Shown here: one piece after another, positions 1 through 30,488 of the stretch | Layout: each line of letters opens with the position of its first letter | How positions within the stretch are numbered: position 1 is the stretch's first letter | Assembly: GCA_963169325.1 (NCBI GenBank) | Contig: CAUJEY010000066.1 | Span: 1 to 36,032, forward strand | DNA: 36,032 nt | Reading direction: 5' to 3' | Origin: Bacteroidota bacterium | Lineage (GTDB): Bacteria > Bacteroidota > Bacteroidia > Chitinophagales > Saprospiraceae | Program-made: the position numbers and the translations under genes | Notes under the pieces: generated by a model | Database searches by the model: none | What the model was told of the DNA's origin: nothing | The model's input: only the letters and a program-made list of their open reading frames with translations

Positions 1-166
1 ACCGTCTACCGTCCACCATCCACCGTCTACCGTCCACCGTCCACCGTCTACCGTCCACCGTCCACCGTCCACCGTCTACCGTCCACCGTCCACCGTCCAC
101 CGTCCACCGTCCACCGTCCACCGTCCACCGTCCACCGTCCACCGTCCACCGTCCACCGTCCACCGT
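1..166. repeat. 7-bp tandem repeat array (CCGTCCA)n
   Basis: About 23 contiguous copies of a 7-nt unit CCGTCCA, with CCGTCTA and one CCATCCA variant, run from the window edge to within 1 nt of the start codon of the next gene. The variants cluster at the left end and the right end is homogeneous, which suggests recent expansion by slippage on that side. No inverted partner is visible, but the array may continue left of the window. It leaves no room for an ordinary promoter or leader directly in front of the transporter gene. Confidence 0.97.
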
Positions 167-167
167 T

Positions 168-1061
168 ATGCACCCCGTCGACACACTCCGCATCAATTTC
201 AATCCCGGCCAAATGGCTGTGCTGAATGCTGCCATGGCTTTCCTGATGTTTGCCGTGGCCCTGGATGTTCGGCCGGCTGATTTCCGAAAGGTGGTGCAAT
301 TTCCCCGTTCCATCGCCGTCGGGTTGGTGGTGCAATACCTTTTGTTCCCGGTTCTGACCCTTGGGATCATTTACCTCTTTCAGCCCCCGGTGAGTATGGC
401 GCTCGGAATGATACTGGTGAGTATGTGCCCTTCGGGCAATATGACCAACTTTTTGGTGCATTTTTCTAAGTCTAACACGGCTTTGTCGGTTACGCTGAAT
501 GCGATTATTATTCTTTCTGCAACGGTGATTACGCCGGCCGGATTTTTATTTTGGTCCCAATTTGTGCCGGAATCGGCGGCGCTGCGCACGACATTCGAGG
601 TGGGTTTCGGCGACATGGCGCTGATTATCGTGCAGCTTATCCTGGCGCCGTTGCTGTTCGGCATGTGGCTGAACGGCCGGTTCCCCGAAGCGGTAGCCCG
701 TATTCGCCTTGTGGTGCAGCGGTTGGCCCTGATTATTTTTTTCTCCATACTCGTACTTGCCTTGCTTGGCAACGGAAAAAACTTAGTCGATTACCTCGGT
801 TATGCTTTTGTTATCGTGCTGGTACACAATGTCGTTGGCCTGAGTACGGGTTATTTTCTGGGCCGTGCCGTGCGGCTTCCAGAACAGGATTGCCGAACGC
901 TGGCGTTCGAATCTGGTGTGCATAATACGGCGCTCGGATTGCTGCTCATTTTCCGTTTTTTCAACGGCCTTGGCGGCATGGCGCTTATTGCAGCCTGGTG
1001 GGGTATCTGGGATTTAGTGACAGGAATGGGTTTGGCTTACTGGTGGAGACGGAGGGGGTGA
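168..1061 (+). CDS. Bile acid:sodium symporter (BASS) family transporter
   Basis: A 297-residue, very hydrophobic protein with about eight or nine membrane segments, the usual size for bacterial BASS/SBF transporters, which move organic anions with sodium across the inner membrane. Family signatures are visible: an early segment with FLMFAVALDV, the CPSGNMTN stretch followed by NTALSVTLNAI near residues 87-115, and the late ESGVHNTALG motif near residue 248, corresponding to the conserved E-x-G-x-Q/H-N sodium-site region. The ATG at 168 lies 1 nt after the tandem array, and no clear ribosome-binding site is visible. The substrate cannot be deduced; besides bile acids, members carry pantoate, pyruvate and other organic anions. 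Family call is firm, function is open. Confidence 0.93.
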   Translation: MHPVDTLRINFNPGQMAVLNAAMAFLMFAVALDVRPADFRKVVQFPRSIAVGLVVQYLLFPVLTLGIIYLFQPPVSMALGMILVSMCPSGNMTNFLVHFSKSNTALSVTLNAIIILSATVITPAGFLFWSQFVPESAALRTTFEVGFGDMALIIVQLILAPLLFGMWLNGRFPEAVARIRLVVQRLALIIFFSILVLALLGNGKNLVDYLGYAFVIVLVHNVVGLSTGYFLGRAVRLPEQDCRTLAFESGVHNTALGLLLIFRFFNGLGGMALIAAWWGIWDLVTGMGLAYWWRRRG

Positions 1062-1062
1062 G

Positions 1063-1172
1063 GTCATTTCGTCATTGTTCGTCATTGTTTAACATCGAGA
1101 AATACCCAATGACGATTAATGATAATCATGAAGCCCAATGACGATTAATGACGATTAATGACGATTAATGAC
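1063..1172. repeat. Intergenic repeat array with inverted copies (GTCATT / AATGAC)
   Basis: Three GTCATT-containing copies at 1063-1086 face a run of AATGACGATT direct repeats (10-nt unit, about three perfect tandem copies at 1137-1172, plus degenerate copies from 1107). The halves are inverse complements (CGTCATTG versus CAATGACG), so the RNA could fold into an imperfect hairpin. The array fills most of the space between the transporter stop and the next start. Confidence 0.85.
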
Positions 1173-1190
1173 ATAATTTAATATCTAAAC

Positions 1191-2006
1191 ATGCTTTACG
1201 ATCAAATACAGGAAACCGTAGCCGCGATCCGTAGCCGCACTACATTTCAACCCCGAACCGGTATTATTCTGGGTACTGGCTTGGGCAACCTTGCCGGCGA
1301 CGTTTCCGTGGAGGCTGTGATACCCTATGGCGAATTGCCGCATTTTGCCGTCAGTACGGTGCAAAGCCACCAGGGAAAGCTAATTTTCGGGCATCTGGAA
1401 GGCCATCCTGTGGTGGTCATGGCCGGCCGGTTGCATTATTACGAAGGCTGGACCATGCAGCAGGTGACGTTCCCGGTGCGTGTGCTGAAAGCCCTTGGTA
1501 TCGAACGGCTTATCATTACCAATGCTTCCGGTGGCATCAATCCACATTTCCGGGGCGGCGATATCGTCGTGGTACGCGACCATATTAATTTGTTGCCGGA
1601 AAATCCGTTGCGCGGCACAAATGACGAACGCCTTGGCCCCCGGTTCCCGGATATGTCGAGGCCTTACGATGAGGCACTACGCGCACGCGCTTTGGCCGCA
1701 GCTCAAAAACACGGTATCCGGGCCTTCGAAGGCGTGTATTCTGCGATGCAAGGCCCTAACCTGGAAACACCCGCTGAGTATATTATGCTGCGCCGGCTGG
1801 GCAGCGACTGCACCGGCATGTCTTCCGTTCCCGAGGTGCTGGTAGCGCGTCACATGGACCTGCCCGTGTTGATGCTGTCTTTGGTCACCAATGTATCCTT
1901 CCCCCCCAGCGTAATCAAAGAAACCAGCGTGGAGGATGTTATTAATATTGCCGCTGCTGCTGAACCGAATCTGAGTTTATTGGTTCGGGAAATTTTAAAA
2001 AGTTAA
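1191..2006 (+). CDS. punA: Purine nucleoside phosphorylase (class II, trimeric type)
   Basis: A 271-residue cytosolic enzyme of purine salvage that cleaves purine (deoxy)nucleosides with phosphate to the free base and (deoxy)ribose-1-phosphate. Visible family landmarks are the phosphate-binding GTGLG near residue 29, the SHQGK and AGRLHYYEG stretches, ITNASGGIN near residue 110, the GPNLETPAEY substrate-site motif and the LVTN segment near residue 245. The conserved Glu and Asn of these last two motifs suggest preference for 6-oxopurines (guanosine, inosine). Length is typical. It ends 2 nt before folA and is probably co-transcribed with it. Confidence 0.95.
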   Translation: MLYDQIQETVAAIRSRTTFQPRTGIILGTGLGNLAGDVSVEAVIPYGELPHFAVSTVQSHQGKLIFGHLEGHPVVVMAGRLHYYEGWTMQQVTFPVRVLKALGIERLIITNASGGINPHFRGGDIVVVRDHINLLPENPLRGTNDERLGPRFPDMSRPYDEALRARALAAAQKHGIRAFEGVYSAMQGPNLETPAEYIMLRRLGSDCTGMSSVPEVLVARHMDLPVLMLSLVTNVSFPPSVIKETSVEDVINIAAAAEPNLSLLVREILKS

Positions 2007-2008
2007 AT

Positions 2009-2524
2009 ATGCTCGTCTCCGCTATCGTCGCCGTCGCAAAAAATGGGGTAATTGGAAAAGACAACCAGATCCCCTGGTACCTGCCTGCCGATTTGGTTTA
2101 TTTCAAGCGCACTACGCTGGGCCATTACGTGCTGATGGGCCGGAACTGTTTTCAAAGTATTGGGCGCCCGTTGCCCAAACGTACCAATGTGGTGATTACC
2201 CGAAATATATTTTTTACTGCCGATGGCGTGCTGGTGGCTCATTCGGTGGAGGAGGCATTAAGTATGGCGTTTGAACACGCCGAGCCGGAGGCTTTTATCA
2301 TTGGCGGCGGTGAAATCTACCAGGCAACGGCAGCGCTTTGGGATAAGGTGTACCTCACCGAAGTGGACATCGAGCCTGAGGGAGATGTCTTTTTTCCGGC
2401 ACTGGTGCCTTCGGAGTGGCGCGAAATCTGGAGTGAAGCACATGCCCCGGATGAGAAAAACAAATTCGCATATACCTACCGAATACTGGAACGTATTGCC
2501 GGAAAAAGACCGGAAAAAGGCTGA
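2009..2524 (+). CDS. folA: Dihydrofolate reductase
   Basis: A 171-residue enzyme reducing dihydrofolate to tetrahydrofolate with NADPH, supplying thymidylate, purine and methionine synthesis. The N-terminus carries the typical core: NGVIG, the IPWYLPADL segment with the catalytic acid at Asp28, and LMGRNCFQSIGRPLP for cofactor and substrate binding. FIIGGGEIYQ near residues 95-105 is the conserved glycine-rich NADPH contact. The ATG follows the phosphorylase stop by 2 nt, so translation may be coupled. Thymidylate synthase, the frequent neighbour, is not present. Confidence 0.96.
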   Translation: MLVSAIVAVAKNGVIGKDNQIPWYLPADLVYFKRTTLGHYVLMGRNCFQSIGRPLPKRTNVVITRNIFFTADGVLVAHSVEEALSMAFEHAEPEAFIIGGGEIYQATAALWDKVYLTEVDIEPEGDVFFPALVPSEWREIWSEAHAPDEKNKFAYTYRILERIAGKRPEKG

Positions 2525-2605
2525 TTTTTAGCCAATAAGAGCGTTTTTTCACTTGTTTTAATTTTCTTGTGTAGAATACACCCATAAAATCTCGTATTTT
2601 TTATA

Positions 2606-2613
2606 TAATTTTG
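2606..2613 (+). promoter_or_regulatory. Candidate Bacteroidota -7 promoter element
   Basis: TAATTTTG matches the Bacteroidota sigma-70 -7 consensus TAnnTTTG and lies 73 nt before the start of the glycogen synthase-like gene in an AT-rich stretch. No clear TTG-type -33 element sits at the expected spacing, so this rests on the -7 match and on position. Confidence 0.4.
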
Positions 2614-2686
2614 CAGCCGATTTTGTCGCGCAAAAGGCGCAGCGAACTCACTGATGGGATTTTACACAAAAGTTAGGTTGACATAA

Positions 2687-3508
2687 ATGGAAAAGAAGCG
2701 CTTGCTTATCGTCACTCAGGAAATGGAACCCTATACAGAAGGCACAGACATTTCCGCGCTGGTGGCGCTATTACCGAAATTTTTACAGGACAACGGGTTT
2801 GAATTGCGGATTCTCATGCCGCGTTATGGAGTAGTAAACGAGCGCCGCCACCGCTTGCACGAAGTAGTTCGACTTTCCGGGATGAACATAATTGTGGACG
2901 ACGACGATTATCCCCTGATCATTAAGGTCGCATCTTTGCCCGGCTCCCGGCTCCAGGTTTATTTTCTCGACAATGAAGATTTTTTCAAACGCAAGTTTGT
3001 CTTCGATGACGTCGATGGTAAACCTTTTGAAGACAACCCCGATCGTGCCGCTTTTTTCTGCAAAGGCGCTATCGAAACGGTGAAAAAATTTGGATGGGCG
3101 CCCGATATCATTCTCTGCCATGGCTGGCTCACCGGGTTGATTCCCTTTTACCTGAAAACCGCATACAAAACGGAAGCATTGTTTGCCAATTCTACCGTGG
3201 TGTACAGCGTTTATCCCGGCGAGCACGAACATGTGGGCGGTGAACAATTTTTTGAAAAAGCCGCCATCAACAACCTCTCTAAAGAAGACCTGGCTGCCTA
3301 CCGCGATGGCGAGGGTTTTTCGATCAACAAAGGTGCTTGTACGTATGCCGATGCTATCGTAATAGGCAGCGAAACGCTAGATACCAGCGTTGATTATCTT
3401 TCCGTTGCACAGGACAAACCCGTGCTTCCCTGGAAAAGTGTAGAAGAATATCAGTCGGCTTCTTTGGAATTCTTCCGCCAATTGACCGAAGCGGAGGTTT
3501 CTCAGTAA
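2687..3508 (+). CDS. Glycogen/starch synthase-like protein, N-terminal GT5 domain only
   Basis: A 273-residue protein that resembles only the N-terminal Rossmann half of GT5 glycogen synthases (usually about 470-500 residues). The similarity runs from the start (LLIVTQEMEPY) through LRILMPRYG near residue 43 and the ILCHGWLTGLIPFYLK segment near residue 142, which matches the synthase H-x-W region. The C-terminal donor-binding half is absent. The ADP-glucose-binding K-x-G-G motif expected right after the N-terminal Glu is replaced by T-E-G-T, so a normal synthase reaction looks unlikely. From what I know of other Bacteroidota, a similar short protein occurs beside DUF4270 and glmS, as here, so this is probably a conserved family rather than a broken gene. 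Its role is unknown; a regulatory or sugar-binding role linked to cell-envelope precursors is possible. Confidence 0.85.
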   Translation: MEKKRLLIVTQEMEPYTEGTDISALVALLPKFLQDNGFELRILMPRYGVVNERRHRLHEVVRLSGMNIIVDDDDYPLIIKVASLPGSRLQVYFLDNEDFFKRKFVFDDVDGKPFEDNPDRAAFFCKGAIETVKKFGWAPDIILCHGWLTGLIPFYLKTAYKTEALFANSTVVYSVYPGEHEHVGGEQFFEKAAINNLSKEDLAAYRDGEGFSINKGACTYADAIVIGSETLDTSVDYLSVAQDKPVLPWKSVEEYQSASLEFFRQLTEAEVSQ

Positions 3509-3539
3509 GTTGCCGACCTTACCGGTCCTTTCCAAACAC

Positions 3540-4898
3540 ATGAAACACATCACTATTCCTGTTCCCTTCCTGCTGCTTTGCGCCTCGTTGGGACTTATGC
3601 TGGGGTATAACTGCTCCAAACCTACGCCCTTTGGGGCCGATTTGCTCGACGATGAAACCGCCGACTATTCTTACCTGGATAGTCTAACGTTGGAATGTAC
3701 ACTATTGCCGGAAGACAGCCTGGTGACGTCGGATATTACCTCTACCGCAGATTATATGATTTGCGGCCAGTTGACCGACCCGGTTTTCGGAAAGGCCCAA
3801 TCGGATATTTATTCCCAGTTACGGTTGAGTGACCTGGGCCCGAATTTTAAAAATGGGGTGGTCGACTCAATTATTCTTTTTCTACGCTACGATGCCCCGG
3901 GTTTCTACGGCGATACTCTGCAACCGCAAACCCTGCGGGTGCATCGGCTCGCCCAGAACGCCCTGGTGCGCTGGGATAAAGTATATTACTCGACCAATTC
4001 CCTCGAAACAGCCGAACAAATCGGTGAGTTGGCAAACTTTTTGCCACAACCTAATGTCGGCCTAACGCTGTTTGATACGGTAGCCAGAGCGCCTTATATC
4101 CGTATTCCGCTCGATAATACCTTCGGACAGGAATTGCTGGGATTCGATAGCCTGACGCTGACATCTGACACCCTGTTTTTTCAAAAGGTACGCGGGCTCC
4201 GGCTTTCCGCCGAATCGCAGGGAACCCCGGGCGCACTAATGGCATTTGATTTGAATAACAGCGCTTTTAGCCGTATACGTCTTTACTACAGACAGGATAC
4301 ATCGTCACGGACGTTCGACTTTTTCTTTTTGGGAGGCAATAAATTTACCCATTTTTCACATGATTACACCGGCTCTATTGTGGAGCCTTATCTGAATAAG
4401 AAGGCTGATGATCGTATGTTCGTTCAGGGGATGGGTGGCTTGCGCATGAAGGTGGAAATTCCGTATGCCCACCTGCTGGACAATATCGCCATCAACAAAG
4501 CAGAACTGGAACTAACCGTGGAAACACTGCCCAACGACAACCCTTTGCTGCAAAGCGCCAGCCAGTTGGTTTTCACTGAATCTATCGGCGATACCATTAC
4601 CACGCTCACGAGCGACGTGTTGTATTCCCTCGGCCCGACCCTGAGCAGCGGATTTAGTGGCTTTGGCGGCTATCCCCTGACAGAAACGGACCAGGGTGTC
4701 AGTGTGCAGCGATACCGCCTTACCCTGACGGAGCGTTTCCAACGGATCGTGGATAACCAGTCCGGAGATATTAAAAACCAAACGGTGTTCTTTAACGTCT
4801 ACCCCCAAAGCCGTTCGGCCATGCGGGCTATCTTTTATGGCCCCCAAAGTGCTACCTTCCCGGCTAAATTAGCCTTAAAATACACCAAAATCAGATGA
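3540..4898 (+). CDS. DUF4270 family exported protein, probable lipoprotein
   Basis: A 452-residue Bacteroidota-specific envelope protein of unknown function. I chose the ATG at 3540 because it gives a signal sequence (MKH followed by a hydrophobic stretch) ending near a cysteine at residue 25. The residues before that Cys (GYN) fit the lipobox poorly, so lipid attachment is likely but not certain. The segment after it, with FGADLLDDE, is the usual start of DUF4270 proteins, and the rest is beta-rich with many short hydrophobic strands. It lies 31 nt after the glycogen synthase-like gene and before glmS, an order I recognise from other Bacteroidota. Confidence 0.82.
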   Translation: MKHITIPVPFLLLCASLGLMLGYNCSKPTPFGADLLDDETADYSYLDSLTLECTLLPEDSLVTSDITSTADYMICGQLTDPVFGKAQSDIYSQLRLSDLGPNFKNGVVDSIILFLRYDAPGFYGDTLQPQTLRVHRLAQNALVRWDKVYYSTNSLETAEQIGELANFLPQPNVGLTLFDTVARAPYIRIPLDNTFGQELLGFDSLTLTSDTLFFQKVRGLRLSAESQGTPGALMAFDLNNSAFSRIRLYYRQDTSSRTFDFFFLGGNKFTHFSHDYTGSIVEPYLNKKADDRMFVQGMGGLRMKVEIPYAHLLDNIAINKAELELTVETLPNDNPLLQSASQLVFTESIGDTITTLTSDVLYSLGPTLSSGFSGFGGYPLTETDQGVSVQRYRLTLTERFQRIVDNQSGDIKNQTVFFNVYPQSRSAMRAIFYGPQSATFPAKLALKYTKIR

Positions 4899-4908
4899 TC
4901 TGTTTTGC

Positions 4909-4968
4909 GTTTTGAGTTGACGTAATAATCCCCCCAACTCAAAACTCAAAACTCAAAACTCAAAACTA
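4909..4968. repeat. Intergenic hairpin plus ACTCAAAA tandem repeats
   Basis: An 11-bp perfect inverted repeat (GTTTTGAGTTG at 4909-4919 with its complement at 4935-4945) encloses a 15-nt loop. The right arm continues as about four copies of an 8-nt unit ACTCAAAA reaching to 2-3 nt before the glmS start codon. The layout matches the other arrays in the window, with a different unit. Confidence 0.88.
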
Positions 4969-4970
4969 AC

Positions 4971-6812
4971 ATGTGTGGTATAATCGCCTACATCGGTTCC
5001 AAAGAGGCCTATCCAATTGTGATTAAAGGCCTGCACCGCCTCGAATACAGGGGTTACGACAGCGCCGGCGTAGCGCTGCAAAACGGATCGTTGAACGTCT
5101 ATAAAAAGAAGGGCAAAGTCTCCGATCTGGAAAATTTTACCCAAGATAAAAACACCAGCGGCACCGTTGGCATGGGGCACACCCGCTGGGCTACACATGG
5201 CAAACCGGATGACCTGAATGCGCACCCACATACCAGTGGCAACAACCGTTTGGTGCTGATCCACAATGGCATTATTGAAAACTACGCTGTGCTTAAAAGC
5301 GCCCTGATCAATCACGGCCACACCTTCAGCAGCGAAACGGACACGGAAGTGTTGGTTCACCTGATCGAAGAAGTGCAGCAACGGGAAAACCTGCCCCTGG
5401 AGGAAGCTGTTCGCCAGGCACTCACCCAGGTACACGGGGCTTATGCCATCGTGGTGATGGATCGGGAAGATCCGGATAAATTGGTGGCCGCGCGCAAATC
5501 CAGCCCGCTGGTCATCGGCATTGGGAAAAACGAATTTCTGATCGCCTCCGATGCAACACCCATCGTGGAGCACACCAAAAAAGTGGTGTACCTGAACGAC
5601 GAAGAAGTCGCTACCGTCACCCATGATGGCCGGCTAACCGTCAAAACGCTCCGCAACGAAGTGATGACGCCCACCATCCAGGAGATCGAACTTGAAATCG
5701 AACAGCTGGAGAAAGGGGGATACGATTATTTCATGCTCAAAGAGATTTTCGAGCAGCCGTCCACCATTGCCGAGTGTATGCGGGGGCGAATGAATGCCGA
5801 AGAAGGCTGGGTACGTCTGGGTGGCATGGAAGAGTATAAAAAACGTATGATCCATGCCCAGCGCATGATTATCCTCGGTTGCGGAACATCCTGGCATGCC
5901 GCCATGATCGCCGAATATCTGTTTGAAGACCTGGCCCGCCTGCCGGTTGAGGTGGAATACGCTTCCGAATTCCGTTACCGCAATCCCGTCGTGGGTGATC
6001 AGGATATTGTGCTGGCCATCTCGCAGTCCGGCGAAACGGCCGACACGCTGGCCGCGCTTAGTTTGGCCAAAGAACGCGGCGCGATCACTTATGGAATCGT
6101 CAACGTAGTCGGTTCTTCCATTGCCCGGGCTACGCATAGCGGCTCTTATATCCACGTTGGTCCCGAAATCGGAGTTGCCTCTACGAAAGCGTTTACCGGC
6201 CAGGTGACGATGCTGACGGTAATGGCCTTGTCCCTGGGCTACGAGCGGGGTTACCTGCCCAAATCACAATACCAAAAATTAGTGCAGGAACTGGCGCTGA
6301 TACCTGGGAAAGTCGACCTTTTGCTCCGGAATTGTCATGAACAGGTGAAATATATTGCCGGCGAATTCAAAGACGCCACCAACGCACTTTACCTGGGACG
6401 CGGCTATAATTTCCCCGTAGCGCTGGAAGGCGCCCTCAAACTGAAAGAAATATCATACATTCACGCCGAAGGATATCCGGCAGCAGAAATGAAACATGGC
6501 CCCATTGCCCTGATTGATGAGAATATGCCGGTGTTCGTGATCGCGACCAACCTGAGCGCCTACGACAAGATCGTGTCCAATATTCAGGAAGTAAAAGCCC
6601 GCAAAGGTGTGGTAGTGGCCGTGGTGACCGAAGGCGATGAGACGATCAAAAAATTAGCCGATTATACCATCGAAATCCCGGATACCGAAGAACCCCTCAC
6701 CCCCCTGCTTTCCGTTGTGCCGCTCCAACTGCTTGCGTATCATATCGCCCTGCTGCGCGGTTGTAATGTGGATCAGCCACGCAATTTAGCTAAATCAGTA
6801 ACCGTTGAATAA
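4971..6812 (+). CDS. glmS: Glutamine--fructose-6-phosphate aminotransferase (isomerizing)
   Basis: A 613-residue enzyme, the normal GlmS length, that makes glucosamine-6-phosphate from fructose-6-phosphate and glutamine, the first committed step to UDP-GlcNAc for peptidoglycan and lipid A. It starts MCGIIAYIG with the catalytic nucleophile Cys2. The amidotransferase domain shows GHTRWATHG near residue 66 and HNGIIENY near residue 93. Two SIS sugar-isomerase domains follow (ISQSGETADT near residue 346, the LKEISYIHAEGYPAAEMKHGP region near 493), ending with the conserved QPRNLAKSVTVE. No GlmS ribozyme is evident: the leader is only a repeat-filled 72-nt gap. Confidence 0.98.
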   Translation: MCGIIAYIGSKEAYPIVIKGLHRLEYRGYDSAGVALQNGSLNVYKKKGKVSDLENFTQDKNTSGTVGMGHTRWATHGKPDDLNAHPHTSGNNRLVLIHNGIIENYAVLKSALINHGHTFSSETDTEVLVHLIEEVQQRENLPLEEAVRQALTQVHGAYAIVVMDREDPDKLVAARKSSPLVIGIGKNEFLIASDATPIVEHTKKVVYLNDEEVATVTHDGRLTVKTLRNEVMTPTIQEIELEIEQLEKGGYDYFMLKEIFEQPSTIAECMRGRMNAEEGWVRLGGMEEYKKRMIHAQRMIILGCGTSWHAAMIAEYLFEDLARLPVEVEYASEFRYRNPVVGDQDIVLAISQSGETADTLAALSLAKERGAITYGIVNVVGSSIARATHSGSYIHVGPEIGVASTKAFTGQVTMLTVMALSLGYERGYLPKSQYQKLVQELALIPGKVDLLLRNCHEQVKYIAGEFKDATNALYLGRGYNFPVALEGALKLKEISYIHAEGYPAAEMKHGPIALIDENMPVFVIATNLSAYDKIVSNIQEVKARKGVVVAVVTEGDETIKKLADYTIEIPDTEEPLTPLLSVVPLQLLAYHIALLRGCNVDQPRNLAKSVTVE

Positions 6813-6898
6813 GTTTAAAGTTTAAAGTTTGAAGTTTGAAGTTCGAAGTCCACGCTCCGAACTTCAAACTTCAAACTTCAAACTTCAAACTCCAAACT
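6813..6898. repeat. Intergenic inverted repeat built from a GAAGTTT 7-mer
   Basis: The left half (6813-6845) has repeats of AGTTTAA/AGTTTGA and the right half (6858-6898) has repeats of the complement ACTTCAA. About 20 bp next to the centre pair perfectly (AGTTTGAAGTTCG-type arm with CGAACTTCAAACT), and pairing continues outward with two mismatches. The loop is about 12 nt. It begins directly after the glmS stop codon and ends about 10 nt before the next start. Confidence 0.92.
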
Positions 6899-6908
6899 AA
6901 AATACGTC

Positions 6909-7625: not shown

Positions 7626-7647
7626 GCGCCGCGTTTTATTACCGGGT

Positions 7648-9031: not shown

Positions 9032-9118
9032 AATGGCTTTGTTTAGGGGGAAGGGATTGTTATTTTATTTTTCTGTGAAAAATAAAATAACAATCCCTTC
9101 CCCCTAAACAAAGCCATT
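9032..9118. repeat. Perfect 41-bp palindrome with 5-nt loop
   Basis: Arms at 9032-9072 and 9078-9118 are exact reverse complements over all 41 positions, around the loop CTGTG (9073-9077). The part nearest the loop is AT-rich and the outer part has G/C tracts. Unlike the other arrays it has no tandem unit. It lies between the PagL-like gene and mtaB, both on the minus strand, 13 nt before the mtaB ATG. No T-tract follows the stem on either strand, so it is not a classic intrinsic terminator. Confidence 0.98.
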
Positions 9119-20675: not shown

Positions 20676-21362
20676 ATGGTACTTTCCAAAATTCAATCGG
20701 CCGTTGCCGAATATAAATCCTGGTTGCTGGGTGTGCGCCACCATCCTTTCGTGTACAAATGGGAGTCGGTGCAAAACTTCCAGGCGAATTGGAATCCGGA
20801 TGACCCCGACCCGGTGGCCATGTTCGATCGCAGTTTGCAAAACAGCGAGACCCGCCGCCTGTGGCAAACCGAAAACTGGCACCCCAAGCGGTTTATGCTC
20901 GAATGCTGGCGCTTCGCCCCCCGCACGACGCGGGCGATGTTCGACGATCTGTTCAATGAAACCCGCGATACGGAAGCGCGCATCGGCCGCTTTCTTTTCG
21001 GCTGCGACGAACTCCTGCGCGATTACAAGCGCGCGAACGCTACCTCGGTAGAAAACAATCATAACCACGGCGACTACCGCATGATCGCTTTATACCTGGC
21101 TTTCCGCTACCCGGATCAGTATGCACCTTACGATTTCGAGGCGTTTCGCAAAACCCTGATTCGTTTTCAGGCGCGCGATATTCCGACCCAACACGATCCG
21201 GGCCGGTATTTTAAAGTGCTGCGCACCCTGATGACATTTTTGGAAAAAGACCCGGAAGTAGCCGCGGCCATGCAACGCCATTTGCACCCGCGGCGGCATT
21301 ACACCGGAAAAACGTTGTTACTGGCGGAGGATTTTTGTATTCAATGTGGACAAGGAGGCTAA
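20676..21362 (+). CDS. Stand-alone protein resembling the N-terminal domain of McrB-type AAA proteins
   Basis: A 228-residue soluble protein starting at the ATG at 20676, 28 nt after clpB. It has the conserved-looking pattern YKWESVQNFQANW, FMLECWRFAP, MFDDLFNE and NHGDYRMIALYLAFRYPDQY. From memory this closely resembles the helical region before the AAA+ GTPase domain in Bacteroidota McrB-family restriction proteins. Here there is no AAA+ domain, no Walker motifs and no McrC partner: the gene ends straight into a repeat array that overlaps its stop codon. It may be a free-standing domain protein, or a remnant that lost its 3-prime part. Without a search the family assignment is tentative; DNA-related defence is possible but not shown. 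Confidence 0.72.
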   Translation: MVLSKIQSAVAEYKSWLLGVRHHPFVYKWESVQNFQANWNPDDPDPVAMFDRSLQNSETRRLWQTENWHPKRFMLECWRFAPRTTRAMFDDLFNETRDTEARIGRFLFGCDELLRDYKRANATSVENNHNHGDYRMIALYLAFRYPDQYAPYDFEAFRKTLIRFQARDIPTQHDPGRYFKVLRTLMTFLEKDPEVAAAMQRHLHPRRHYTGKTLLLAEDFCIQCGQGG

Positions 21363-21527
21363 ATGTGGTCAATGTGTTTTAAATGTGGTCAATGTGTTTT
21401 AAATGTGGTCAATAAGATCAATGTGGTCAATTCTAAAATTGATCTCATTGACCACATTGATCTTATTGACCACATTTAAAAAACATTGACCACATTTAAA
21501 ACACATTGACCACATTGACCACATTCA
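21361..21527. repeat. Long palindromic array with AATGTGGTCA-type units (copy 1)
   Basis: Repeats of AAATGTGGTCAATGTGTTTT on the left face their complements on the right. The centre is a perfect 31-bp inverted repeat (21401-21431 with 21447-21477) around a 15-nt loop. Pairing extends outward to about 71 bp per arm (21361-21431 with 21447-21517) with two or three mismatches. The array fills the gap between two convergent genes: its left end overlaps the stop of the McrB-like gene and its right end is 1-2 nt from the glycosyltransferase stop. It shares its unit with the array at 25036-25222. Confidence 0.97.
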
Positions 21528-22297: not shown

Positions 22298-22455
22298 CAG
22301 TTTAGTTTCTGATTCGTATAAAACTGTCAGAATCAGCAAAAAAAGAATCGGTTTAACATTTAATTGGAGTTTTTTGGAAAACTTTTTGCTGATAGATACC
22401 GTTAGGAGTTCAAAATCAATATTTATCTGCTAATCCGGCAAAACTGTTAAACACT

Positions 22456-22626: not shown

Positions 22627-22642
22627 TCGCAGGCTTTTTTTT
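22615..22642 (+). terminator. Intrinsic terminator overlapping the small ORF stop
   Basis: An 8-bp perfect stem (AGCCTGCG / CGCAGGCT) with the 5-nt loop TTAAT is followed by eight T residues. The TAA stop codon of the 56-residue ORF lies in the loop, and the last two codons form the left stem. Confidence 0.9.
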
Positions 22643-22766
22643 ACTCATTCGACTTTTTTCCCCGTATTTGATCAATACGTTGCCGGGGGATGTGCCATAT
22701 TTGTCCGCGCGTTGAACCAGCCAGAAATTATACTGTTAAGGTCTGAGTGCTTCGCGCCTGATAATT

Positions 22767-23819: not shown

Positions 23820-23820
23820 C

Positions 23821-24516: not shown

Positions 24517-24612
24517 AAAAGACCTTGCATCCGTGCTTTTTTAACATTTTTGCCAACCCGAGTGCCGGTGCTTTGTCTTTATATCCGTTACGAGTACAAA
24601 ACGAACAACTTT

Positions 24613-25029
24613 ATGCAGCAGAACGGTACACTTACCAGTGTCGCCCTGGCGGCTATTACCTCCTTTCTATTTTTGTCCTTGTTCAGTTGCAACGACACGC
24701 CTTGTCGCGAACTAAGCGGCCGATGGTCCAACCGGGAAGGTCAGTCATTTTATTTTGAACCAGATGGCAAAGCGCTTTGGCTTGTTCGTTTTGGCAGCCA
24801 GGTCGACACCTTCGTTATGGAATACCGGTACGATTGCAAAAAACAACCGGTCCAACTGGATTTAAGCGGCTTCCAGACGGGGCCGCTCAGCGGAAAAACA
24901 TTGTACGGTATTCTGGAATGGAACAGCGACTCTTCCTTCCGTTTTGATGCCGAAGCCGGTATCGGGCCGGAATCAAGACCGCTCACCTTTGAGACAGATC
25001 AGACGCAGAAGTTCTTTCGGGAAAAATGA
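24613..25029 (+). CDS. Small lipoprotein of unknown function
   Basis: A 138-residue exported protein. The ATG at 24613 is preferred because it gives a signal peptide ending in the lipobox FLFLSLFSC (Cys26). The mature part is beta-rich with conserved-looking aromatic positions (GRWSNREGQSFYFEPDGKALW), like small lipocalin-type lipoproteins of Bacteroidota. No known family recognised. The gene ends at the palindromic array that separates it from the convergent DUF3467 gene. Confidence 0.75.
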   Translation: MQQNGTLTSVALAAITSFLFLSLFSCNDTPCRELSGRWSNREGQSFYFEPDGKALWLVRFGSQVDTFVMEYRYDCKKQPVQLDLSGFQTGPLSGKTLYGILEWNSDSSFRFDAEAGIGPESRPLTFETDQTQKFFREK

Positions 25030-25035
25030 TGTTTT

Positions 25036-25222
25036 TAATGTGGTCAATGAGATCAATGTGGTCAATGTGTTTAAATGTGGTCAATATGTTTCAAATGAGA
25101 TCAATGTGGTCAATGTGTTTTAAATGTGGTCAATTGGAAAAGTTCACATGTAAATGGACCACATTGACCACATTGATCTCATTTAAACACATTGACCACA
25201 TTTAAACACATTGACCACATTT
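25036..25222. repeat. Palindromic array with AATGTGGTCA-type units (copy 2)
   Basis: The same unit family as the array at 21361-21527 (AAATGTGGTCAATGTG and AATGAGATCAATGTGG variants). A perfect 25-bp inverted repeat pairs 25093-25117 with 25160-25184, and looser pairing extends outward. It fills the gap between two convergent genes, starting within 7 nt of the lipoprotein stop and ending 2 nt from the DUF3467 stop. Confidence 0.96.
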
Positions 25223-25224
25223 AA

Positions 25225-25542
25225 TCAAGCTTGCGCCGGTGGCGTATTGAAATTCATCGGCGGGAGTTGGGGTTGTTCGGGCTCGTCTATTTTTCCGAAT
25301 TGCTGTTCGTATTTCTGCACGTTGTCCTTCAGCGCAAACAATAGTCGTTTGGCGTGTTGAGGGGTCAGGATGATACGGGCTTTTACTTTGGCTTTCGGCA
25401 CATTGGGCATCAGGCGGATAAAGTCGACGACAAATTCGGAATTCGAGTGCGAGATAATCGCCAGGTTGGAATAAACGCCCTCTGCTATTTCTTCTGAAAT
25501 CTCAATATTGATGGCCGGTTGCTGATTTTTATTCTCTGCCAT
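25225..25542 (-). CDS. DUF3467 domain-containing protein
   Basis: A 105-residue cytosolic protein of a widespread but uncharacterised family. It has the DUF3467 pattern YSNLAIISHSNSEFVVDF, an invariant-looking proline-basic segment (PKAKVKARIILTPQHAKRLL) and a final YEQQFGKI motif. A proline- and glutamine-rich tail follows. Divergent from fumarylacetoacetase; a -7 element match lies 76 nt upstream. Confidence 0.92.
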   Translation of the reverse strand: MAENKNQQPAINIEISEEIAEGVYSNLAIISHSNSEFVVDFIRLMPNVPKAKVKARIILTPQHAKRLLFALKDNVQKYEQQFGKIDEPEQPQLPPMNFNTPPAQA

Positions 25543-25617
25543 GATAAGGTCAGTATGTAATTAGGTGATTAAATGTTTGTTGTTAAAAATTTACTTTACT
25601 GATTCGATACGGGCGCG

Positions 25618-25625
25618 CAAAGTTA
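25618..25625 (-). promoter_or_regulatory. Candidate -7 promoter element for the DUF3467 gene
   Basis: On the minus strand this reads TAACTTTG followed by CG, the form most often seen at Bacteroidota -7 sites. It is 76 nt upstream of the start. No -33 match at the usual spacing. Confidence 0.5.
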
Positions 25626-25659
25626 CGGGAAAAACCAACGGAATTCCGATTTTTGCCCC

Positions 25660-26907
25660 ATGACAACTTGGCTTTCTATTTCTGCAAATTCTGATTTCTC
25701 CCTTTACAACCTCCCTTTTGGCATATTTGATTCCGGCGACGGCAGGCCAAGAGCCGGTATAGCCATCGGCGATCATATTGTCGATTTGGCGGCTGCCGCC
25801 GAAACCGGCTTGTTTGGCAAACGCCGTTTTTTTAAAAAAATATTCGAACAGCCGGTACTCAACGATTTTATCGCTTTGGGCAAGCCGGTCACGAACCGGG
25901 TGCGCCGCAAGGTACAGGAGTGGCTGTGCCGGCCGGAAACGCCGGACAATGCCGGCAACCTGTTGGCAGACCGCCGGACCGCCCGGATGCACCTGCCGGT
26001 TCGGATCGGCGACTACACCGATTTTTACAGCAGTATCGAACATGCGACCAATGTGGGTAAGATGTTCCGGCCCGACAATCCGTTGCTGCCCAACTGGCGC
26101 TGGCTACCGGTGGGGTACCACGGCCGCTCCTCCAGCATTGTGCCAAGCGGCACACCGGTGCGCCGGCCCTACGGACAAATTTTGCCGAAAGGACAAGAGA
26201 CGCCCGTTTTTTCCGCTTCCCGCCAATTGGATTTCGAGCTCGAAATGGCCTTCATCATTGGAAAAGATACTGCCCTGGGTGAATCGGTACGGGTAGAGAA
26301 CGCCGAAGACTATATTTTTGGATTAGTCTTGTTCAACGACTGGAGCGCGCGCGATATTCAACGCTGGGAATACGTGCCACTGGGGCCTTTCCTGGGTAAA
26401 AATTTTGCCTCCTCCGTCTCCCCCTGGATCGTACCTCTCGAAGCCTTGAAACCTTTTCGCACAAAAGGCCCGAAGCAAACGCCGCCGCCGTTCGAATACC
26501 TCAACGCCCGTGGCGCCCGTAACTATGATATAGCACTGGAGGTAGCCATTCAGGCGGGCGATGCCGAGCCTGCCGTGGTATGCCGTTCCAACATGCGGCA
26601 TCTCTACTGGTCGATGGCCCAGCAATTAGCCCATCACACAATTAACGGATGTAATATCCGGGTGGGCGACCTGATGGCTTCCGGCACGATCAGCGGGCCC
26701 GGGCCGGGCACTTACGGTTCCATGCTCGAGCTGTCCTGGGCCGGCCAGCAACCGATACCATTGGCCGACGGCTCCTCCCGCACATTCCTGCAGGACGGCG
26801 ATACGGTTGTTATGCGCGGTTGGGGCGAAAAACCGGGCATGCGCGTGGGTTTTGGCGAAGTGCGTGGGGAAATCCTGCCGGCGCTTTCCTCGCCTTTTCT
26901 ACCCTGA
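25660..26907 (+). CDS. fahA: Fumarylacetoacetase
   Basis: A 415-residue enzyme hydrolysing fumarylacetoacetate to fumarate and acetoacetate, the last step of tyrosine breakdown. Active-site features are present: DYTDFYSSIEHATNVG near residue 114 with metal-ligand Asp, VGYHGRSSS near 150 with the catalytic His, FELEMAFIIG near 192 with acidic metal ligands, and LFNDWSARDIQRWEYVPLGPFLGKNF near 225. Length matches the eukaryotic-type enzyme. Other tyrosine catabolism genes are not in the window. Confidence 0.96.
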   Translation: MTTWLSISANSDFSLYNLPFGIFDSGDGRPRAGIAIGDHIVDLAAAAETGLFGKRRFFKKIFEQPVLNDFIALGKPVTNRVRRKVQEWLCRPETPDNAGNLLADRRTARMHLPVRIGDYTDFYSSIEHATNVGKMFRPDNPLLPNWRWLPVGYHGRSSSIVPSGTPVRRPYGQILPKGQETPVFSASRQLDFELEMAFIIGKDTALGESVRVENAEDYIFGLVLFNDWSARDIQRWEYVPLGPFLGKNFASSVSPWIVPLEALKPFRTKGPKQTPPPFEYLNARGARNYDIALEVAIQAGDAEPAVVCRSNMRHLYWSMAQQLAHHTINGCNIRVGDLMASGTISGPGPGTYGSMLELSWAGQQPIPLADGSSRTFLQDGDTVVMRGWGEKPGMRVGFGEVRGEILPALSSPFLP

Positions 26908-27029
26908 CAAAGCGCCATTCCCGGTTTTTGGTGTCATTTTTGCTGAAATTATCTTAATCCATTATATAAACCTCCCCAACCCCTTATAATCCCTTCGCTC
27001 TAATCCATTTCATCACCAAAACTATTCCC

Positions 27030-29261
27030 ATGCCGAAATCTTACGCGCTGCTTCTTGGCGGATTGTTGTTCATCACCCTGAATACCTACGGCGTTACCAG
27101 AACCTGGATAGGCGCCGACGGCGATAACTGGAATAATATCGCCAGTTGGGCCCCCGCTGGAGTACCCACAGCGGCCGACGACGTGGTAATCAGCGGCTTT
27201 TATGGCACTATTGTTATTAACACGTCGTCTGCCAATACTTTTGTCCAGTCGTTGAATATCATTAATGGTTCGGATGTCATTTTTGCCGGCAACACCAGCG
27301 GCCGTCGAATGACCATTTCTTGCGCAGGCTGTAGCTCGGGTATAGAAAGTGGCAGTGCCGCCACCTTTTCCGGGATAGCGGGCAGCAGCGCTTGCGACCT
27401 GTTTTTTAGCCAAAGCCCTGCTTTTACGGTGGATGGCACACTGACGTTTTCCGGTGGCGGCAACAGCGATTTGATTGCAGCCAATGCAAGTATTGTAGTC
27501 CAAGGCAGCCTGGTATTTTCCGGCGCCGGCAGCTCTAGGCTGGTCTGTACAGGTGGCATTACCGTAGTGAACGGCGCAATTGTTTACGCCGGCGGCGGCT
27601 CAACGCTGAGCGCGAACCCGTCCAACCTGATTGTCAATGACAATGCCGTCTATGAAATTGCCAAAAATGGCACAAACGTACCCAATGCGAATTGGAGCAA
27701 CAGCTCCACCCTCAAAATCACCGGCATGACCAATGATGACCCGGCCTTTACCAACAATGCCATTTTAGGAAATTTGATATGGGATTGCCCGGGCCAGGTG
27801 GCGCCGGCTGTCCTGAACGTGAACCTGAGTTTTAACCGGGTGGATATTTTTGACACCGGCACCAGTGAAATACGGGTGTCTGCGCAATCCGGCGCCGGGC
27901 AAATGCGCACCTGGGTTATCAACGGTGACTACACCCAAAGCGGTGGGATCGTAAATCTGTCCAGCGGCAACAACGGCAGCGGCAAAATCAATTTTAAAGG
28001 CGGCAGTTTTTATGCTTCGCAAACCCTTACAGAAACCTCCGCTAACGGCAAGGGTATTCTGGAATTTAGCGGATCGCAAGCACAATCGGCCTATTTTGGC
28101 ACACTTGAAAATACGGTGGATATCATCATCAACATGGGTGATGAAGTCATTTTAAACACCCGGTTAACCATAAATGCGCAATCAACCCTGAACCTTGTTT
28201 CCGGCAGGCTGATTACCTCGGCGCAAAACCTGCTGACTATTTCTGCCGGAGGAAATGTTTTGGGCGGCTCTCTGGCGTCACACGTTATCGGGCCCATACG
28301 AAAAGCCGGAAACACGGCTTTTGTCTTTCCGACCGGTAAAAACACCACCTATGCGCCCATTGCTATTTCAGCGCCTCCGGCCGTAACGGATACGTTTACA
28401 GCCGAATATTTCGACGATCCCTTCCCGAATACGACCAGTTATTTGCCTCCTCTGGTGCGCGTCAGCCAATTGGAACACTGGCAATTGGTACGGAGTTCGG
28501 GCGCCGGGCCGGTGCAGGTGACGCTTTACTGGCAAGACGGCAATGCCAGCGGCATTAATGATTTGTCCAGCCTGACCGTGGCGCGATTTGACGGCTCCGA
28601 TTGGATAAACGCCGGCGGCACCGCGAGCGGCATCGTGGCAACCGGCAATATACAATCTGATATAACCTCCGTTTTTGACTGGTTCACCTTCGGCGCCAAA
28701 CAATCGGCCTTCAATCCACTGCCCGTTGAACTGACGGCCTTTAACGCCGTTTCGGCGCGGACGGAAGTCGTTTTGAACTGGACTACCGCCACCGAAAAAA
28801 ATAACGCCTGGTTTGCCATTGAACGCAGTGAAGACGGCAGGCTGTTCGACGAAATCGGCAGGACTCCGGGAGCAGGGAACTCCAGTACGCCCCGTCACTA
28901 CATTTTTACCGACAAATACCCGCTTGCAGGCCTCAACTATTACCGGCTTCGGCAGTTGGACGATGACGGCGGGTTTTCTTTCAGTCCCGTGCGCGCAGCG
29001 ACAATCGGTAATGCGGGTCGTTTGCGACTGTACCCATCGCCGGTCACGGATCTACTTCATATCCGATGGAACGCAGACCATGGGACATCCGCCCAATGGT
29101 ATATTTTCGATGTAGCCGGCCGGCTGACTTTGTCGGGAACCCAGGATGCAGGCGCCCAGGACTGGGAAATTCCCGTTGGGCAATTGCCCGGTGGGACGTA
29201 CATCCTGACCGTTGAAACGGGGCAGGAAAAGGTGAGGGAGCGGTTTGTAAAGAAAAAGTAA
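27030..29261 (+). CDS. T9SS-exported surface protein with beta-rich repeats
   Basis: A 743-residue secreted protein. Signal peptide about 1-21, then WIGADGDNWNNIASWAPAGVPTAADDVVI, a start common in large Bacteroidota surface proteins. Residues 40-560 are Gly/Ser/Thr/Asn-rich with regular short beta strands, probably a beta-helix or stalk. A fibronectin-like linker (LPVELTAFNAVSARTEVVLNW, about 562-655) precedes the T9SS type A domain (LYPSPVTDLLHIRW, about 665-743). No enzyme motif is visible; adhesion or a structural surface role is likely. Confidence 0.88.
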   Translation: MPKSYALLLGGLLFITLNTYGVTRTWIGADGDNWNNIASWAPAGVPTAADDVVISGFYGTIVINTSSANTFVQSLNIINGSDVIFAGNTSGRRMTISCAGCSSGIESGSAATFSGIAGSSACDLFFSQSPAFTVDGTLTFSGGGNSDLIAANASIVVQGSLVFSGAGSSRLVCTGGITVVNGAIVYAGGGSTLSANPSNLIVNDNAVYEIAKNGTNVPNANWSNSSTLKITGMTNDDPAFTNNAILGNLIWDCPGQVAPAVLNVNLSFNRVDIFDTGTSEIRVSAQSGAGQMRTWVINGDYTQSGGIVNLSSGNNGSGKINFKGGSFYASQTLTETSANGKGILEFSGSQAQSAYFGTLENTVDIIINMGDEVILNTRLTINAQSTLNLVSGRLITSAQNLLTISAGGNVLGGSLASHVIGPIRKAGNTAFVFPTGKNTTYAPIAISAPPAVTDTFTAEYFDDPFPNTTSYLPPLVRVSQLEHWQLVRSSGAGPVQVTLYWQDGNASGINDLSSLTVARFDGSDWINAGGTASGIVATGNIQSDITSVFDWFTFGAKQSAFNPLPVELTAFNAVSARTEVVLNWTTATEKNNAWFAIERSEDGRLFDEIGRTPGAGNSSTPRHYIFTDKYPLAGLNYYRLRQLDDDGGFSFSPVRAATIGNAGRLRLYPSPVTDLLHIRWNADHGTSAQWYIFDVAGRLTLSGTQDAGAQDWEIPVGQLPGGTYILTVETGQEKVRERFVKKK

Positions 29262-29273
29262 GCGCAGTTTTGA

Positions 29274-30011
29274 TTACAAGCCTCTCCGTTTAACGGTAAA
29301 GGGGCCGTTCAGGATGTAAGAGCATGTCAAGCCCAGCGAATAATACCAATCGCCGGAGTCCGGGTTACCGTTCAGGCTTACGCCATCCAACATGTCGGAA
29401 TAAGTCGGCCGGATGTTTGCCTCCATTCCAATAGCCAGCCGTTCGCTCAGGATTGTCCTAATGCCGCCTCCAAAAGGTGTTATCAGGAGGATATGGCGGT
29501 CTTTGCCCCCTTCGGGAAAGGGCGCCTGAACGAAATAATCGCGACGCGAAGGATCGCCGTAATATTCTACTTGGGGGCGAATGAATAAAGCGCCTGCGCC
29601 GGAAAAGACATAAGGGGAAATGTAGATGCTCCCGGTGCTAAAAGTCGGGTCATATTGGTAAGTCCCCAGCGCCAGTTCAACTAACCCGGTGCTTTCGAGC
29701 ATAAAACTCGAAAACCGGAAACTTCTGTCTTTATGGTTGGAGGAGTGACGATCATCGCCGGCCACTTTACCGGCAAAAAGTTGGCCCCGTAGCAGGATAA
29801 ACGGCAATATCTGGTACCGGACAAACAGGTTTCCGCCGAAATTGGTTTGGGTTATCTCTATATGCGACTCTGTCATATCACCCGAATAGTTGGTGGCCGC
29901 CAACCCGAAGCCCACTTCAAGGAAACGCTCCGACGGGGTTACCTGAGCCGGCAGTTTCAGCGCCGTACCAATAATCAGAAAGACTGCCGGCAGGAAAAGG
30001 ATTTTATTCAT
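29274..30011 (-). CDS. Outer membrane beta-barrel protein (DUF6089-like)
   Basis: A 245-residue protein with a signal peptide (MNKILFLPAVFLIIGTALKLPAQ) and alternating amphipathic beta strands. The beginning FLEVGFGLAATNYSGDM and the end GDWYYSLGLTCSYIL fit the DUF6089-type barrels of Bacteroidota, some of which are linked to T9SS function. Assignment is by resemblance only. It is convergent with the preceding T9SS gene, with 12 nt between stops. Confidence 0.78.
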   Translation of the reverse strand: MNKILFLPAVFLIIGTALKLPAQVTPSERFLEVGFGLAATNYSGDMTESHIEITQTNFGGNLFVRYQILPFILLRGQLFAGKVAGDDRHSSNHKDRSFRFSSFMLESTGLVELALGTYQYDPTFSTGSIYISPYVFSGAGALFIRPQVEYYGDPSRRDYFVQAPFPEGGKDRHILLITPFGGGIRTILSERLAIGMEANIRPTYSDMLDGVSLNGNPDSGDWYYSLGLTCSYILNGPFTVKRRGL

Positions 30012-30287
30012 GGTCGCATGTTCGGAAAATGAATTTTAGGTGTAAAAATTGACCGGTTCTGCCAGATTTTAATCTTTTGGCGGATAAAAATTCGAGAACA
30101 GACTTTTAAGGTCAATAAATGCATCTCCTGCCTGCGGAAACGGACGGAGGAAATACCATGGCAATATGCCTTAGCCGAGGAATATTTAAACCCACACTGC
30201 TGGGTATTTTCAAACACATAGTGCACATAGATTTTTGATTTTCAAAGGTTTAAATTCTTGGAGGTTGGGGGTTTGGTTTTTTTGGGA
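30012..30287. other. Intergenic stretch with no recognised gene
   Basis: The 276 nt between the barrel gene start and the palindromic array hold no convincing ORF, RNA gene or consensus -33/-7 promoter. A minus-strand ORF at 30008-30226 lacks coding character. An unrecognised promoter for the barrel gene must lie here or upstream. Confidence 0.5.
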
Positions 30288-30488
30288 GGGTTACTGGTTG
30301 GAAGGGTTGAGGGTTACTGGTTAGAAGGTAAGAAGGTTAGAAGGTTACTGGTTGGAACGCGCGCCAACCAGTAACCCTCTAACCTTCCAACCAGTAACCT
30401 TCCAACCAGTAACCCTCAAACCAGTAACCCTCTAACCTTCAAACCAGTAACCCTCTAACCTTCAAACCAGTAACCCTCTAACCTTCTA
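30288..30488. repeat. Palindromic array with GGTTACTGGTT / AACCAGTAACC units
   Basis: Left copies of GGGTTACTGGTT-AGAAGG face many right copies of CCAGTAACCCTCTAACCTTC. A 23-bp arm (30333-30355) pairs with 30364-30386 with one mismatch around an 8-nt loop AACGCGCG. The right side has about six direct copies, so it is strongly asymmetric. Its last unit overlaps the stop codon (30486-30488, minus strand) of the following gene. Confidence 0.96.

Follow-up and report, generated by a model that had tools for sequence, protein, structure and literature searches.

Intergenic palindromic tandem arrays with a strand rule in a lineage of Bacteroidota

Palindromic arrays of the window

The stretch of DNA analysed here (the window) is the whole of contig C66 (CAUJEY010000066.1; 36,032 bases), which belongs to the draft genome of a Bacteroidota bacterium (G000; 8.07 Mb in 349 contigs). 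The intergenic gaps of the window contain arrays of short tandem units that are mostly folded into inverted repeats. Such intergenic palindromic arrays form a genuine class specific to the lineage and obey a strong strand rule, according to which a G-rich left arm is followed by a C-rich right arm. Ordinary Pfam families are matched by most genes of the window (SBF symporter, PNP, DHFR, glmS, Clp-type ATPase, RadC, DUF3467, SprB-repeat protein and others), only 3/26 scanned genes being without one. A search of the window against Rfam at the curated score gave no match and therefore no known structured RNA. The GlmS protein is nearest to that of metagenome genomes whose labels are mostly Saprospiraceae or Bacteroidetes. 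One further record, L051 (JAKLJF010000074.1), is titled Thermoanaerobaculia, yet its GlmS is 95% identical to that of the window and the flanking coding sequence is alike; it is probably a mislabelled or mixed bin.

The initial annotation had reported repeats in eight gaps, and after corrections they are present in all of them. The first array (1..166) consists of a C-rich 7-nucleotide (nt) tandem unit, (ACCGTCC)23.7 with 94% matches, and stops 1 nt short of the start codon in an SBF-family gene at 168. Its inverted partner is invisible, base 1 being the contig end, and it probably represents the right arm of an array truncated there, whose lost left arm is expected from the polarity rule. The contig thus starts inside an array, and arrays may cause part of the 349 contig breaks. 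In the co-directional gap after the SBF-family gene, a 10-nt array of the CGTCATT family is found in both orientations (1063..1172) as a weak palindrome lacking any ungapped stem with a score of at least 16. Between a DUF4270 gene and glmS lies a short palindromic array (4909..4968) with 18-nt arms and the unit TTTTGAG / CTCAAAA, whose period is 7 rather than the 8 given before. The next palindromic array (6812..6898), with the 7-nt unit AAGTTTG / CAAACTT, begins within the glmS stop codon, and its arms (6812-6848 and 6855-6891) are 92% complementary around a 6-nt loop. A perfect 42-bp inverted repeat with a 3-nt loop and a G-richer 5' arm, but no tandem unit, occupies 9032..9118. The convergent gap 21361-21527 is filled by a palindromic array (21352..21525) of the unit AATGTGGTC/AATGTGTTTT that overlaps the end of the left gene and has 70-nt arms, 99% complementary, around a 15-nt loop. 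The same unit family (AATGTGGTC / AATGTGTTT) recurs in the palindromic array at 25055..25221 (stem score 59) in the convergent gap 25036-25222, so the claim that the units of the window arrays differ does not hold for these two gaps. Finally, a palindromic array of 23/15/8-nt GGTTACTGGTTAGAAGG units at 30250..30496 (stem score 56; gap 30288-30488) reaches the stop of the SprB-repeat gene. The outward divergence of arms that had been described is visible by inspection in the arm at 30288 and not in the arm at 21362.

Abundance and gene context

G000 was sampled in 61 stretches with a total of 1.14 Mb (~14% of the genome) and 613 intergenic regions; these were picked by contig number and supplemented with contigs known to carry one unit, so that array density is maybe biased upward. 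Gene borders were obtained with a hexamer gene finder built for this analysis and stems with a gapped stem finder, gaps of <15 or >900 nt were excluded from the context counts, and 'same genus' denotes the kinship label attached to genomes in the collection used. A first 348-kb sample contained 50 ungapped hairpins with a score of at least 20, compared with 0 in an order-3 Markov control, and gapped stems at this threshold were detected in 153/613 intergenic regions versus 1/613 dinucleotide shuffles. The arrays are therefore far more frequent than expected by chance. As tandem arrays recur in near-complete assemblies of the same genus, they are also not assembly artefacts, the other doubt raised by the initial annotation.

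Stems are unevenly distributed among gene contexts. Considering gaps of 60-400 nt and stems scoring at least 16, G000 has stems in 50/74 convergent, 90/258 co-directional and 14/103 divergent gaps (shuffles 1, 0 and 1), and the convergent and divergent frequencies differ with a Fisher P of ~1e-13. The excess of convergent over divergent gaps is shared by three same-genus genomes: G022 (70 contigs; 12/27 convergent, 20/123 co-directional and 6/47 divergent; shuffles 0, 1 and 1), G007 (9 contigs; 6/10 vs 3/18) and G009 (7 contigs; 7/15 vs 1/21). For stems of G000 that score at least 20 and have the G-rich arm on the left (G-left), the median distance to the stop codon is 5 nt, 67/98 being found within 10 nt when overlaps are counted, and the median distance to the start codon is 44 nt, with 11/46 within 10 nt. 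The arrays therefore lie close to stop codons.

Both the convergent excess and the closeness to stop codons speak for selection favouring RNA hairpins at mRNA 3' ends irrespective of sequence; these would serve as two-way, T-tract-poor terminators or as 3'-end protectors. This explanation, possible although we doubt it, implies that units drift freely while a long stem persists and that the G/U-rich arm must be transcribed first. However, depletion from promoters alone would yield the same enrichment at 3' ends, and stems look dispensable within the genus, given that none were found in 20-40 kb each of G001, G008, G011, G012 and G018. A TTTT sequence is present within 10 nt of the 3' arm at 4/42 tandem-array gene ends in G000 and at 0/9 in G022. 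Of the features of an intrinsic terminator, the arrays have the location at gene 3' ends, but a canonical terminator is not supported. Stem density varies among the same-genus genomes, with 17 stems per 100 kb in G000, 22 in G022, 35 in G016, 10 in G021, 7.5 in G007, 5 in G009 and 2.5 in G005, the stem state of G008, G012 and G016 being drawn from ~20-kb samples. Among eight other families, sampled with 10-20 kb each, seven yielded none and one a single unskewed hairpin.

Strand polarity of the arms

The strongest regularity of the arrays, the combination of a G-rich 5' arm with a C-rich 3' arm, was overlooked in the initial annotation. Across 68 homologous inverted array pairs of G000 and G022, 62 run G then C and 0 run C then G; at least one arm is unskewed in the remaining 6, of which one is G-rich on the right. 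Among the tandem-armed stems of G000, 51/53 are G-left (1 C-left, 1 equal), and the ratio of G-left to C-left is 17:0 in convergent, 29:1 in co-directional and 5:0 in divergent gaps. Tandem stems of G022 are G-left in 9 cases and C-left in 0, and samples of 16 other genus genomes contributed 14 inverted pairs (from seven genomes), of which 13 are G-left and 1, in G021, is C-left. Whole-genome pattern searches of G000 for palindromes with swapped arms gave 0 matches versus 23 in the natural arrangement for the AAGTTTG unit and 0 versus 9 for the TTTTGAG unit. The order extends to gaps that hold two unrelated arrays (n=21), where 8 run G-C, 0 C-G, 5 G-G and 4 C-C, with one side unskewed in 4. 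In a second pass over 67 pairs, the left arm had more G than C in 65, but more T than A in only 52 and the reverse (A>T) in 14, which indicates that the rule concerns G and not T. Polarity is a property of tandem arrays and at best weak elsewhere: non-tandem stems of G000 scoring at least 16 comprise, by subtraction, 74 G-left, 55 C-left and 9 equal cases. For all stems at this threshold the ratio of G-left to C-left is 16 to 8 in G007 and 18 to 7 in G009. As a single observation, the convergent gap L044:1068-1158 carries unrelated left (AATGTGGTC) and right (AACTTCA family) arrays that are still G-rich and then C-rich.

Polarity might reflect base composition if arrays amplified whatever borders a gene, 5' untranslated regions being already C-rich and G-poor. 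Two observations agree with this unlikely explanation. Non-array gaps of G000 read outward from start codons have a G content of 0.246 and a C content of 0.155, and one-sided arrays counted strictly are outwardly polar only on the start side (22:4 at starts, 11:8 at stops), even though a loose count (hand sums) had given 47:10 at starts and 24:8 at stops, and an outward polarity of one-sided arrays in general was dropped. Outward from stop codons, however, non-array gaps of G000 are unskewed (0.217 vs 0.216) and those of the other three sets lean slightly towards C, so that convergent gaps provide a clean test of polarity. As the 17 G-left and 0 C-left convergent tandem stems cannot be a background effect, a purely compositional origin is refuted for convergent gaps; in the other contexts composition may contribute. 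The same unskewed stop side is in line with selected RNA hairpins. Against these stands the G-left orientation of divergent arrays as well (5 vs 0), though the baseline start-side skew could account for them, and the lack of a G-left bias among ordinary terminator-like stems of G000 (125 G-left vs 123 C-left, in a scan that includes coding DNA). The latter count also led to the rejection of a general G-left orientation of terminators as the source of polarity; among seven sets of terminator-like stems only the 'poor genus' set leans G-left (24 vs 9, P 0.01). Two further candidates were rejected, namely regional mutation bias, as loops and stop-proximal non-array DNA are unskewed, and the supply of stop codons in all three frames by left arms, which was observed in 17/42 cases compared with 21.3 expected from shuffled units.

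Unit families and loops

Although units vary from gap to gap, they are not independent of each other. One AACTTCA-unit 20-mer is matched 96 times in the genome, with some overlap between matches, and 163/177 array-bearing gaps of the G000 sample have at least four 10-mers in common with another gap, the largest cluster comprising 140 gaps. In a permuted-unit control the largest cluster contained 11 gaps and 112 were singletons; this control is rough, as letters were permuted in steps of seven regardless of array period and clusters are single-linkage. The most common periods are 7 (73 arrays) and 14 (39) in intergenic DNA, and 12 (23) followed by 7 (20) in coding DNA. The exact palindromic pattern of the AAGTTTG / CAAACTT unit, matched 23 times in G000, has 0 matches in the other 297 genomes sampled from the order. 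Likewise, the longer exact palindromes of the TTTTGAG / CTCAAAA unit, matched 9 times in G000, have 0 matches in the other 394 genomes sampled from the phylum. Some of these matches overlap within one array, and absence elsewhere means that the word is unused there in its exact form. One architecture with differing units, as initially described, is therefore seen within the genome and also at orthologous glmS flanks of relatives, but the units form shared families. Similarly, the arrays were contrasted before with repetitive extragenic palindromic (REP) elements, bacterial interspersed mosaic elements (BIMEs) and miniature inverted-repeat transposable elements (MITEs) as having no common sequence; a conserved element sequence was indeed not seen, while unit families are common to many gaps.

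The loops of the arrays are unskewed and have no common motif. Some 6-mers reach 5-8-fold, with 5-8 occurrences in 107 loops, and none of them makes a convincing conserved centre in these 107 loops. This argues that the arrays are not transposed as fixed cassettes. In one case (L150:7177-7352), a hairpin with A- and T-tracts that looks like an intrinsic terminator lies inside the loop between two array arms. A separate palindrome family of G000 is C-left and contains CTTGTCATCCCGSAGGGAACYGTCCGCTCTA or a close variant (L032:9336-9446, L036:8106-8218, L044:11486-11641 and L050:5255-5361); one copy of this family ends at a contig end.

Orthologous sites and turnover between sister genomes

The borders of glmS were compared at 41 loci (the window and L051-L090, with L091-L130 omitted), of which 40 were usable upstream and 38 downstream, and the stem threshold was lowered to 13 without a shuffle control. 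Stems at this threshold were present at 12/40 upstream and 16/38 downstream sites; 24 are G-left, 4 equal and 0 C-left, and part of them are tandem. The units of the tandem ones clearly differ among relatives and include AAGTTTG, GATGAGT, GTTTTAGTGTTTTGG, GAGTATTTGAGGAT, GAGGATTCGAG, GAGTTTTGAGTTTCGGG and others. At the border of a glycosyltransferase gene (window 21529), stems with recognisable units were found in 4/23 same-genus relatives (L152, L153, L155 and L164), all unlike those of the window, and AT-rich stems in three more (L165, L166 and L173); here, the neighbouring gene is often different. Related species, it seems, can keep a hairpin at a site while the repeated word differs, the shape being maintained by an unknown DNA-copying process or by selection.

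The near-complete sister genomes G007 and G009 are collinear with ~95% identity in the longest aligned blocks (local flanks at compared sites 86-98%), and gap lengths were compared for 8 and 12 gaps chosen from the two sides, which are partly identical. The lengths of three array gaps diverge by a factor of 2.4 to 3.8; these are a convergent gap containing a GGGGTCATT palindrome (94 vs 225 nt; 86 and 215 in the reverse comparison), in which the loop is similar and both arms have changed, a GGTTGATGA gap (289 vs 77 nt) and a GGTTTGAGG gap (520 vs 194 nt). Along 454 base pairs of G007 stems, 8 double changes preserve pairing, 45 changes are one-sided and 1 double change is broken, whereas by our own arithmetic independent change should give ~2 double changes, most of them non-pairing. 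Paired changes of this kind, in stems that are not tandem, also agree with selection for RNA hairpins. Additionally, the loop of a 27-pair hairpin with AGTGGCACACGTCTCGCCGTG arms in a co-directional gap is reverse-complemented between G007 and G009, an outcome expected of template switching or cruciform processing.

The same comparison bears on an origin from mobile palindromic elements (REP/BIME/REPIN or MITE) moved by a transposase. Palindromes of ~160-165 nt (one starting TAGACTTGTTGCGGTGGAGG; G007 55593-55757 and G009 101006-101171 in the concatenated samples L181-L190 and L191-L200) are present in one of the two genomes and missing at the orthologous site of the other, judged by alignment coordinates, with further copies nearby; a palindrome similar to this class occurs in G000 at L131:19168-19253. 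Clean insertion with an empty site, of the MITE type, was seen for some non-tandem palindromes, which form a different, MITE-like class; the compared tandem arrays differ in length at a given site or are unchanged. Tandem arrays have neither a shared centre nor a fixed length, and matches to Y1_Tnp are as numerous in the stem-free samples G008 (4) and G012 (6) as, or more numerous than, in G000 (3) and G016 (2), making mobility the most improbable of the explanations considered for the tandem class.

Origin of the arrays

We tentatively prefer, with less than even confidence, an origin by local amplification: palindromic tandem arrays at gene borders would be enlarged and altered where they lie through slippage and template switching, and be tolerated mostly at the 3' ends of genes. 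Units would expand within an arm through replication slippage. Template switching across the hairpin, in whatever repeat register, would transfer sequence between the arms, so that both share a unit family although the order of units is not kept. Repeats from elsewhere in the genome would seed new loci. Arrays would persist mostly where a hairpin is harmless, namely at the ends of genes, and could additionally function there as 3'-end structures working in both directions. Polarity could be accounted for if fold-back and productive priming were restricted to a G-rich new strand, which is a guess. Growth in place is supported by the gap-length differences between G007 and G009, and exchange between arms is suggested by the paired changes and the loop inversion of non-tandem stems. 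The unit order of tandem arrays lends it no support, and any exchange there would have to proceed in any register. Gene-end enrichment fits tolerance, a 3'-end role or both, and polarity is the least explained step.

Several results weigh against local amplification. Variant units do not follow a mirrored order in the two arms (15 vs 12 of 30 testable among 67 pairs, Fisher P 0.38), a separate unit-order test gave 0/40 at P<0.05, and the arms are therefore not simple fold-back copies; a reversed-order test that favoured mirroring (39 vs 9, 16 ties) was judged to be confounded by unit-length errors. Arm lengths correlate weakly (rho 0.29), several gaps are equal in length between G007 and G009 (e.g. 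80 vs 81 and 403 vs 403 nt), and copying between arms leaves unexplained the 8 gaps that pair different unit families and nevertheless run G then C. The G-rich arm strand folds only slightly better than its complement (33 better and 5 worse of 67; mean -1.8 vs -0.9 kcal/mol), and with this small difference and some A-rich units the polarity step is weak. By inspection, the paired changes (five stems, with 3/8 in one) and the inverted loop belong to stems that are not tandem, so arm exchange lacks demonstration in the tandem class; for this reason our confidence, already short of even, was lowered slightly.

The G-then-C order of heterologous pairs (8 vs 0) is what a telomere-like birth would predict, in which both 3' ends of an intergenic break are extended with G-rich repeats from a common template and rejoined head to head, the template being either a small circle or an RNA copied by a reverse transcriptase. 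It further predicts polarity in every gene context, as in the 51/53 tandem stems of G000, one unit family with independent order in both arms, and unique, unskewed junction loops. Tandem-repeat synthesis of a telomerase-like kind exists in bacteria, according to the available account of DRT10 (PMC12632851), although DRT10 is described there as protein-primed. On the other hand, an RVT_1 match is absent from G016 (a 96%-complete draft), in which tandem arrays occur in 8/14 of the gaps sampled, polarity is lacking in one-sided arrays at stop codons (11 vs 8), and the loop looks similar while the arms change between G007 and G009. Such a birth appears quite improbable, and more improbable still is the full scenario in which the lineage adds G-rich repeats to intergenic breaks from interchangeable templates and rejoins them head to head, with the unit word rewritten from species to species. 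The degrees of confidence expressed for local amplification, RNA selection and telomere-like addition belong to readings that overlap.

The dedicated repeat-generating enzyme suggested in the initial annotation is unproven: by inspection, the counts of reverse transcriptases and Y1 transposases do not track stem density (G021 and G022 were outside both family searches). A weak lead ties the stems to the absence of SbcD. A strong SbcD match (~200 bits) was found only in G004, G008 and G012 of 25 genus genomes, and stems are present in 0/3 of these (20-22 kb each) compared with 11/15 others (samples of at least 14 kb), with a one-sided P of 0.04 that is uncorrected for kinship. G014, a genome with 2 stems, lies just above the SbcD family cut-off, at 78.3 bits together with neighbours; counted as SbcD-bearing, it changes the comparison to 1/4 vs 10/14 (P 0.14, likewise uncorrected for kinship). 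Most other genus genomes have a weaker SbcD-like match, which in several genomes lies close to a Walker B match resembling SbcC (in G000, for example, C298:792 and C298:4091).

Relation to known repeats and significance

Our literature search turned up no paper on these arrays among the titles it listed, subscription journals being mostly outside its reach, and the class is a variant of known intergenic repeats. Direct intergenic heptamer repeats are known in cyanobacteria as short tandemly repeated repetitive sequences. The nearest published case is formed by the TAACTGA heptamer repeats of Beggiatoaceae, Cyanobacteria and some Bacteroidetes (MacGregor, 2015; PMC4679880); as far as the available text of that work goes, some Bacteroidetes hold long heptamer sets that are absent from close relatives. 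Both kinds are intergenic tandem repeats near gene borders with a dominant period of 7. The TAACTGA repeats, as described there, consist of one fixed heptamer that mostly forms direct repeats ahead of start codons, only one inverted case being given for the main genome, whereas the arrays analysed here comprise many unit families, 68 inverted homologous pairs and a G-first polarity, mostly at gene ends. Borg tandem repeats are similarly fast-changing and independently arising, but according to the available part of that report they are direct repeats of extrachromosomal archaeal elements (PMC9879509).

REP elements and intrinsic terminators each fail a tested defining feature. Like REP/BIME/REPIN sequences, the arrays are intergenic palindromes in high copy; unlike them, they vary in unit family, arm length and loop, no conserved element or central motif was seen, and by inspection there is no relation to the counts of Y1 transposases, the enzyme type (RAYT) of REP systems. 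As in intrinsic terminators, hairpins follow directly after stop codons and crowd in convergent gaps, but arms of 18-70 nt in the window, tandem units, the rarity of a T-tract and the G-first polarity set them apart. The paired arm changes and the one loop inversion of non-tandem stems resemble quasipalindrome correction by template switching, a process that, to our knowledge, is not known to give rise to vocabularies of tandem units or to a constant strand polarity. The strand polarity itself resembles head-to-head telomere fusion. Short tandem repeats are also the product of DRT10 and telomerase synthesis, in the available account of the former (PMC12632851); the present arrays, however, are chromosomal and change in place, a reverse-transcriptase correlate was not found, and DRT10 serves as a mechanistic parallel only.

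The strand rule (62 vs 0 pairs, and 24 vs 0 stems at glmS across species) strongly constrains the origin or selection of bacterial chromosomal palindromic repeats. The near-complete sister genomes G007 and G009 have been identified for watching turnover, and arrays of this kind may explain intergenic breaks in some metagenome assemblies. The arrays represent a testable case of structure without fixed sequence, kept by mutation or by selection.

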